Assembly: GCA_020060625.1 (NCBI GenBank)
Contig: JAGUZU010000105.1
Span: 1 to 32,028, forward strand
Length of the DNA stretch: 32,028 bases
Direction of reading: 5' to 3'
Origin: Anaerolineales bacterium
GTDB lineage: Bacteria > Chloroflexota > Anaerolineae > Anaerolineales > Villigracilaceae
Shown here: in pieces, positions 3,880-5,290 of the stretch
How the letters are laid out: each line of letters starts with the position of its first letter
Numbering within the stretch: position 1 is the stretch's first letter
Made by a program: the position numbers and the translations under genes
The notes under the pieces: model-generated
What the model was told of the DNA's origin: nothing
Seen by the model: the letters and a program-made list of their open reading frames with translations, nothing else
Database searches by the model: none

Positions 3880-3952
3880 GCCCCCATCGTCTAGCGGCCC
3901 AGGACGTGGCCCTCTCAAGGCCAAAACCGGAGTTCGAGTCTCCGTGGGGGCA
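3880..3952 (+). tRNA. tRNA-Glu (anticodon CTC)
   Basis: A 73-nt cloverleaf can be drawn: acceptor GCCCCCA/TGGGGGC, anticodon stem TGGCC/GGCCA with loop CTCTCAA (anticodon CTC), T-arm CGGAG/CTCCG with loop TTCGAGT, discriminator A. The CCA end is not encoded. The gene starts 18 nt after lutBC and has its own terminator. Its 3' part is exactly duplicated at 4181-4233. Confidence 0.95.
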
Positions 3953-3954
3953 CA

Positions 3955-3982
3955 AACACCCGTTCAACCCGGGTGTTTTTTT
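3955..3982 (+). terminator. Rho-independent terminator of tRNA-Glu
   Basis: The stem ACACCCG/CGGGTGT with loop TTCAACC is followed by a run of seven T. It begins within three bases of the tRNA 3' end. An identical copy lies at 4204-4230. Confidence 0.85.
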
Positions 3983-4013
3983 ATTTTTTCTCTACGTACA
4001 TTTTTCATTTTTT

Positions 4014-4115
4014 AACCGCCAAGTGTCGCCATGGCGCCATACGACAAACGCCAAGGTCGCCAAGATTCAAATCTTTTGGCTGTTTTTCTTGGCGCCGCTT
4101 GGCGGCTTGGCGGTT
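4014..4115. repeat. Long palindromic element, AACCGCCAAG type
   Basis: About 102 bp bounded by the perfect 10-bp inverted repeat AACCGCCAAG (4014-4023) and CTTGGCGGTT (4106-4115). Inside, CGCCAAG and CTTGGCG words repeat. It lies between tRNA-Glu and the duplicated tRNA 3' end. A shorter relative with the same ends is at 31660-31734, beside tRNA-Arg. Confidence 0.8.
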
Positions 4116-4180
4116 GCCTTTCGGCATTTGTACGGCAGCAAATTATTTTTCAAACCGTCGTCCCCGCAGGGGGGATGTTA

Positions 4181-4233
4181 TTCGAGTCTCCGTGGGGGCA
4201 CAAACACCCGTTCAACCCGGGTGTTTTTTTATT
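4181..4233 (+). pseudogene. Partial tRNA-Glu copy: T-loop to 3' end plus terminator
   Basis: These 53 bases are identical to 3933-3985: the T-loop, the 3' T-stem, the 3' acceptor strand, the whole terminator and ATT beyond it. The 5' two thirds of the tRNA is missing and is replaced by a sequence with a TCCCC/GGGGA hairpin. A direct repeat that begins at a tRNA T-loop and runs through the 3' end is what an integrase attachment site looks like. Its last bases supply the TAA stop of the minus-strand gene that ends at 4229. Confidence 0.8.
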
Positions 4234-5290
4234 GAGCAGGCTCGATCAGTGTGTTGTTTTCCGATATCGCCCCGTCCGGGTATTCGATCTTGATGGGTTT
4301 ATCCGTCTTGTTGTTTCTGACGATCACATCTTCATTCCTGGTCAGGAGGGCGATTGGGAGGCTGCCGATTGTTCCGAAGACAATATTATCTTCGATCAGC
4401 AATCGAATTTCCATACCGGTCGGCATCTCCGATTTCCAACTTGAGATCCCCGAGTGACAATTGCTTACCTGGTTGCCGATTATTTTATTGTCATGCCGCT
4501 GGGCGCCCCATCCTTCATAGAATTCCTCTGCAACTGCTATGCCTGCCGGTCTGTTTTGCTCGCGAAGATAAATACCGGTACAGTACACCGTGTTATCCCG
4601 CACAACAGTGTAAGAAGAGTTGTCAACATAAATGTTGACCGAAAAGTTGTCCCGCACGATATTATTTTCCACCAAAACATTTACACCCCGCGTCACCGCG
4701 ATCCCCTCGCCGCAATTTTCATAAACCAAATTTCTGCGAAAGATGACATCTTCTCCGCCCATCATCACCTTCAATGCGCTTCCCCATCCGCCGTGACCGA
4801 GACAGGTCACCTCTCCATTTTCCGTTACGCTGTGGTGGACAATCGAGTCTTCGACGATAACGTGCCTGCCCTTGACCAATATACCGTGCGAGATCGATCC
4901 AGATACTTCCAATCCTGAAATGACGATGTAATTCCCGGATACGACCACTCCGGGTAAAACGGCGTCCTGCCCGGCAATTACAAGGTGGTTTTGAGCCGTG
5001 CCTGAAGCGGATACATCCAAAACTTCGGGATAATGCCCTTCCAATAAATGGATGACCTCCCCGGGCTGGGCAACGGATATTGCCCTGTCCAATGTGCGGC
5101 ACGGCTGCGTATTGGCGCATCGATTCCCGTCATTTCCGCCGGGCGAAATATATACGCCCTTCGTTTTCCACAGCGCATTCGCGTCCATACTCATGTGGAG
5201 TGTGCCGGACTTATCCTGCGACTTCCAGATAAAGAATGACGCCGTCAATAGCGCTGCTGCCAATAGGAACATCCATGCTGTCTTTTTCAT
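4229..5290 (-). CDS. Secreted right-handed beta-helix protein
   Basis: 353 residues. An N-terminal hydrophobic segment (about 5-22) with no lipobox suggests a signal peptide or anchor, so the rest should be outside the membrane. The mature part starts GVYISPGGNDGN and PCRTLDRAI, the usual opening of parallel beta-helix proteins. It then shows repeating V-x-x-N-x-I/V rungs, for example VENNIVRDN, VRDNTVY and IEDNIVFG. Such folds often bind or cleave polysaccharides, but no lyase catalytic set could be assigned. GGAAAGGA lies upstream of the ATG as ribosome binding site. The stop codon lies in the duplicated tRNA terminator at 4229-4231, so the C-terminus may have been reset by that duplication. 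Confidence 0.75.
   Translation of the reverse strand: MKKTAWMFLLAAALLTASFFIWKSQDKSGTLHMSMDANALWKTKGVYISPGGNDGNRCANTQPCRTLDRAISVAQPGEVIHLLEGHYPEVLDVSASGTAQNHLVIAGQDAVLPGVVVSGNYIVISGLEVSGSISHGILVKGRHVIVEDSIVHHSVTENGEVTCLGHGGWGSALKVMMGGEDVIFRRNLVYENCGEGIAVTRGVNVLVENNIVRDNFSVNIYVDNSSYTVVRDNTVYCTGIYLREQNRPAGIAVAEEFYEGWGAQRHDNKIIGNQVSNCHSGISSWKSEMPTGMEIRLLIEDNIVFGTIGSLPIALLTRNEDVIVRNNKTDKPIKIEYPDGAISENNTLIEPAQ

Follow-up and report, generated by a model that had tools for sequence, protein, structure and literature searches.

Why should the 3′ end of a tRNA gene, together with its terminator, be present twice at one locus? The window, the whole 32,028-nt stretch of DNA that was analysed, contains an intact tRNA-Glu(CTC) gene for which this is the case. 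The original prediction proposed an exact duplication of 53 bp, and this was confirmed by comparison of the repeats. The segment at 3933–3985 begins at T54 of the T-loop, extends through the terminator and is matched exactly at 4181–4233, with a start-to-start distance of 248 nt. We judge an exact repeat of this length within 1.6 kb to lie well above chance expectation. The palindrome described between the copies is real, with AACCGCCAAG arms at 4014 and 4115 spanning 102 bp. It is also correct that this interval contains no plausible gene; the mechanical open reading frames there cross the tRNA copies, and no integrase gene was found between the two tRNA ends in the window.

The features of the locus are collected in Table 1. 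Two of them had been overlooked: the 20 nt directly before the second copy are a conserved module, and the palindromic DNA belongs to a dispersed repeat that is present elsewhere in the same genome. The downstream 53-bp copy is one unit of a family of tRNA-tail repeats of the Anaerolineae (Chloroflexota). There is one unit at this locus, directly behind tRNA-Glu, and its 21 nt up to the tRNA end are identical to the 3′ end of the host tRNA. The end of its spacer overlaps the stop of a convergent beta-helix gene (4229–5290, minus strand).

Table 1. Features of the tRNA-Glu(CTC) locus and the unit behind it, in window coordinates.
Feature	Positions	Strand	Basis
Host gene, intact tRNA-Glu(CTC)	3880..3953	+	ARAGORN; Rfam tRNA
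11 nt upstream of T54; stretch copied into the unit, here imperfectly (7/11)	3922..3932	+	Sequence reading; 11-nt boundary analysis
R0, first repeat copy: T-loop to tRNA 3′ end	3933..3953	+	
S0 spacer, containing the terminator hairpin and a T-run; same sequence as the spacer that follows the unit	3954..3985	+	
Dispersed ~150-bp repeat with 102-bp palindrome (4014–4115), inserted inside the unit	3987..4138	.	
Copy of the 11 host nucleotides that precede T54: TCAAACCGTCG vs host CAAAACCGGAG	4150..4160	+	
T-loop hairpin module TCCCCGCAGGGGGGATGTTA, absent from the tRNA itself	4161..4180	+	
R1, tRNA-Glu copy: T-loop to 3′ end	4181..4201	+	
S1, second spacer/terminator copy	4202..4233	+	

The palindromic repeat is a separate element, an independent insertion that separates the first terminator from the unit. 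A 195-nt stretch that includes the palindrome folds with z = −5.6 relative to shuffled sequences. Comparison of a 356-bp query with its own genome gave 35 matches including the query itself, most of them to the dispersed repeat, and the best other copies have 92–93% identity. When the window is aligned with five copies the repeat has imperfect ends, CTACCGTACA / TGTACGGTAG or near to these, and there is a slight suggestion of a T-rich target duplication, TATTTTT. The flanks of the insertion, read separately and not as a joined sequence, resemble the first unit of the same-genus genome G026 (L011). Of the two alternatives in the original prediction, the very small mobile unit fares better, but the palindrome is no part of the unit family.

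A search of 60 relatives found the piece 4147–4204 in tandem behind tRNA-Glu in several genomes of the same genus. Many of the tRNA-Glu loci of these relatives are array-free, and the arrays are of two types. Type A has the module of the window, and type B has another hairpin at the position of the anticodon loop. In G023 a type A array lies behind tRNA-Lys and carries the end of tRNA-Lys itself (L064). The empty site sought among related genomes is present in G001, of the same genus, where tRNA-Glu is followed by one terminator and then the beta-helix gene. The upstream gene region of G001 is 75–79% identical in blocks to that of the window at the nucleotide level, and the beta-helix proteins are 55% identical. 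Given close relatives that do not have the unit, no essential function is expected at the window locus. A simple tandem tRNA array in decay, named at the outset as the contrary outcome, is not what the relatives contain. The type B arrays (L017, L022, L024, L065, L091, L127 and L128) consist of copies of the 3′ half of tRNA-Glu with a hairpin of about CTCATACCATCGAGGTACGCGA. Among 301 genomes, six contain their exact pattern, each belonging to the genus of the window, and a type B-like remnant can be read in G048.

Each unit repeats the sequence of the tRNA or tmRNA gene that precedes it, beginning 11 nt before the T-loop point and ending just beyond the 3′ end, and a spacer follows. At the T-loop point is the module, a hairpin of ~18–20 nt with the form TCCCC-loop-GGGGATGNTA. 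Among 118 distinct type A units it starts with TCCCC in 96, CCCCC in 20 and another sequence in two, and it ends with ATGNTA in all 118, in a set extracted by a pattern that fixed part of the module sequence. The 3′ part of the units is almost unchanged (118 units, selected with ≤3 mismatches in 19). The T-loop start of the repeat, taken from the beginning as an informative sign, is upheld as such. On the other side of the module the copy has a sharp limit. For 95 distinct units the match to the host is 0.12 at −12 and 0.84 at −11, compared with 0.23 and 0.45 when units are set against other tRNA types. The match at −11 is 0.91 for Glu (n = 32), 0.90 for Lys (n = 20), 0.74 for Ser with its long variable arm (n = 19), and 1.0 for both Gly (n = 7) and Met (n = 4). 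The boundary is weaker in the small samples of Val (0.5, n = 6) and Asn (0.5, n = 4), and the two tmRNA units fit their host poorly upstream. By our reading, a shift of the insertion point by +1, +2 or +3 carries the boundary along in L261, L273 and L298 and keeps its distance to the module at 11 nt; a fourth case, L291, is unclear.

The module is present in 133 of 163 tRNA-3′ copies found without requiring it, a count that leans towards the module because most loci were fetched by means of it. By reading, all but at most two of the remaining 30 have a variant or another hairpin, and one of those two is a neighbouring tRNA gene. The shortest gap between a tRNA end and the module is 19 nt. Units follow one another at 58–139 bp in 71 of 73 spacings and contain no genes.

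The motif GGGATGNTATTCRA occurs in 112 of the 301 genomes of the order, and its reverse-read control in 12. Searched against a collection covering 84,980 species, a strict form of the motif matched 115 stretches. Among the 80 of these that were listed, 73 have titles of Chloroflexi/Anaerolineae or a subgroup, including the isolates Anaerolinea thermolimosa, Longilinea arvoryzae and Bellilinea caldifistulae. The other seven listed stretches have different titles; judged by context, two look like real units (L163, Pelotomaculum, and L205, Syntrophaceae, both metagenome bins) and five like chance matches. The family is nearly restricted to Anaerolineae. Two viral contigs were also matched, one array-like (L251) and the other probably by chance (L250), and a single 35-nt composite query gave no match in phages. 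At gathering scores Rfam reported tRNA or tmRNA alone in the window and 12 array loci, and no description of a tRNA-tail repeat family was found in open-access literature listings.

The units lie behind stable RNA genes. The 117 stretches, 115 genomic and two viral, yielded 176 strict matches, of which 134 have a tRNA or tmRNA on the same strand within 1.5 kb upstream, against 779 of 11,700 random positions in the same loci. The median distance of the first unit from the RNA gene is 46 nt (n = 83 loci). The hosts are tRNA-Glu, Lys, Ser, Gly, Val, Arg, Met and Asn and tmRNA, to which later reading added tRNA-Pro and tRNA-Cys, making eleven kinds of host RNA. By reading, the 42 matches with no called RNA gene upstream comprise contig ends, degenerate tRNAs, lone units and chance matches in coding sequence. 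Over 87 arrays there are from one to seven units per locus. These counts are not independent, since the units share ancestry. The data are mostly metagenome assemblies, several of which end within an array. Metagenome contigs L022, L058, L077, L083 and L085 break off at tRNA-Glu, or within the gene or its array, and array copy numbers are therefore probably underestimated.

The spacers bear on how the units arise. The likeness of the last spacer (S_last) to S0 is at least 0.8 in 29 of the 87 arrays, 0.6–0.8 in 12 and below 0.6 in 46; sampled random spacer pairs never reached 0.8. The window is in the group with S0 = S_last, a state expected after duplication, conversion or the loss of another unit. 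There are 40 multi-unit arrays; in 16 of them the inner spacers resemble S0 and the last is different, a pattern favouring insertion (L010, L017, L024, L096, L098, L099, L112, L137, L150, L154, L156, L160, L176, L185, L203 and L209), another 14 have S_last like S0, and 10 fit neither pattern. We also compared 13 Glu(CTC) arrays with the native terminators at 20 Glu(CTC) loci of the same genus that have no array. S_last is closer than S0 to these in 10, worse in two and tied in one (Wilcoxon p = 0.01), 11 of the arrays coming from same-genus genomes and two (L171, L225) from genomes of unchecked genus. The fit of S_last to native terminators favours insertion between the tRNA and its native terminator, beside possible tandem duplication.

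These observations, of anatomy, host specificity, 11-nt boundary, host range, tandem arrays and empty sites, lead us to the reading that we prefer and to which we give about an even chance. The window would contain a tRNA-tail repeat unit born by recombination, like the TLRs of Escherichia coli, with an unrelated palindromic repeat inserted, and would have no essential role at this locus. Recombination at the T-loop might leave the tRNA intact and place a copy of its 3′ end downstream, the module and the duplication arriving together in one TLR-like event. Arrays could then expand and contract by recombination between identical tRNA ends.

E. coli TLRs are repeats directly behind tRNA and rRNA genes, with one to five per locus, whose 3′ end is the same as that of the RNA gene over 18–19 bp, and most have no known function (PMC8144298). 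Position behind an RNA gene, 3′-end identity and copy number are common to both families. By reading, the inner spacers of E. coli tyrT and tyrV are alike and the last is different. The tyrT repeat unit is reportedly 178 bp in length, according to the title of Egan and Landy (1978). The tyrT copy starts at AATCC inside the T-loop and lacks the 11-nt upstream copy, and its units lack the TCCCC..GGGGATGNTA module (one TLR locus compared, by eye). The Anaerolineae units are therefore TLR-like, and not TLRs of the E. coli type. The E. coli repeats of tRNA ends date back to 1978 in the literature, and most have no known function. The Anaerolineae family offers 83 strict-match loci, around eleven host RNAs, sharp boundaries and empty sites in close relatives, and its presence in cultured B. 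caldifistulae and A. thermolimosa makes insertion origin and RNA function testable. The units could mislead annotation of both islands and tRNAs.

A more specific proposal, which we put forward tentatively and with the balance against it, is that the ~20-nt hairpin is itself a nano-element. It would enter the T-loops of tRNA and tmRNA by a dedicated recombination, or the anticodon loops in the case of the other hairpin, measuring 11 nt and leaving the host intact with a tagged copy of its 3′ end. It would then be an undescribed parasite of tRNA genes, and far smaller than the usual mobile DNA. REP/MITE and other very small dispersed repeats are known, for example the cyanobacterial SDRs. The ~20-nt hairpin module, sometimes tandem (L208, L301), is like these, but differs in being found mainly in tRNA-tail copies. 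In 10 genomes 84 matches gave 52 distinct module contexts; 35 are tRNA copies, 16 are not and one is unclear, and 10 of the 16 lie inside open frames of at least 150 codons.

It is rather doubtful, and slightly more so than the nano-element, that the units function as RNA, arising within tRNA transcripts through read-through and processing, for example as protein-binding small RNAs or in the tuning of tRNA maturation. Any transcript of a unit would require read-through of the tRNA terminator. The idea gains from the strong conservation of the module across tRNA types and families, and from position 52, which in 106 units has changed from G to C in 20, to T in 10 and to A in two. Changes of G52 to C or T would extend hairpin 1, and this is a hint of selection on structure. 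Functional RNAs of this kind have been proposed for rrA, rrB and rrF in E. coli, and among the E. coli TLR RNAs three are ligands of Hfq and CsrA (PMC8144298). Yet no single fold emerges. In RNA MFE structures of the 106 units hairpin 1 is found in 57, hairpin 2 in 52 and both in three, and position 51 shows no covariation with N (paired in 34 of 106 units; mean of shuffles, 39). The units are also patchily present among close relatives. Three particular roles were rejected. Maintenance of the T-stem by pairing was set aside: the 5′ strand of the stem has eroded in the units, where the pairs at positions 49–53 are kept in 89, 81, 82, 73 and 104 of 106, compared with 106 of 106 hosts at four pairs and 105 at one. 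An acceptor-stem mimic (minihelix) would fit the Glu units, but the module is unchanged behind tRNAs with other acceptors. A CsrA sponge fails because CsrA was matched in two of eight array genomes searched and not found in six, including that of the window.

Less probable is an origin of the units in islands that target tRNA genes, as attachment-site scars or as relics without cargo; examples are the islands with large serine recombinases in Dehalococcoides, which belongs to Chloroflexota. The T-loop target fits this idea, as do the n + 1 tRNA ends for n like spacers in the 16 arrays above. Phage integrases have been divided into two classes with the anticodon loop and the T-loop as targets (PMC1762012). 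The Dehalococcoides ssrA islands (DsiB/DsiA serine recombinases) have the same kind of target, with insertion in the middle of the T-loop of tmRNA and a foreign, conserved motif beside each repeat (PMC3146451). However, those islands carry genes, 16 of them with an integration module, and are ssrA-specific, whereas the Anaerolineae units are gene-free and lie behind many tRNAs. A recombinase beside a unit was noticed at one locus. At L230:6341–7918 a large serine recombinase gene (Resolvase, Recombinase and zinc-ribbon domains) overlaps the tRNA-Glu end by its 3′ end and is followed by the unit, a placement that resembles dsiB of the ssrA islands (PMC3146451). A second recombinase, ~33% identical to it, lies on the reverse strand behind tRNA-Glu(TTC) in G009 (L036:1755–3104). 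Against the idea, tblastn with the L230 protein matched these two alone among the collected loci, which are mostly a few kb long. No second tRNA end (≤3 mismatches in 20) lies beyond the G009 recombinase on the same contig. PF07508, for large serine recombinases, had no match in four of 12 genomes searched, all four with arrays, and spacers are as short as about 8 nt. A link between units and serine recombinases may exist, with one adjoining locus, but is rare among the loci examined. A Y1 transposase was rejected as the driver, having no match in G216, one of eight array genomes. For the window itself, the suggestion that the 53-bp repeat is the scar of a lost integrative element is unsupported, and it is probably not one; an integrase scar is rejected as the main reading because there is no gene between the copies and, throughout the order, equivalent units follow tmRNA and many kinds of tRNA.

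Tandem duplication of tRNA ends followed by decay, with no special mechanism, would explain the likeness of S_last to S0 in arrays such as that of the window, and in the 14 multi-unit arrays. The 11-nt boundary, sharp in well-sampled tRNA types, speaks against it, as do the single module behind eleven kinds of host RNA and the count of at most two hairpin-free copies in 163, and we consider it very improbable.

Some individual loci depart from the common arrangement. L201 has two tRNA-Val copies 3.7 kb apart, one of them truncated, each followed by a unit with two hairpins, before AGGTC and before TTCGA; it was rejected as an island since the genes between the copies include no integrase recognised by eye. 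In L208 the ~20-nt module itself is tandem, and in L301 (G048:C12 near 260902) a tandem module has no tRNA within 900 nt upstream. At the tRNA-Met locus of L. arvoryzae (L154) there are three tRNA-end copies in which the T-arm bears another hairpin, CCCATAGGGCTTTGG or a version of it altered at one base.
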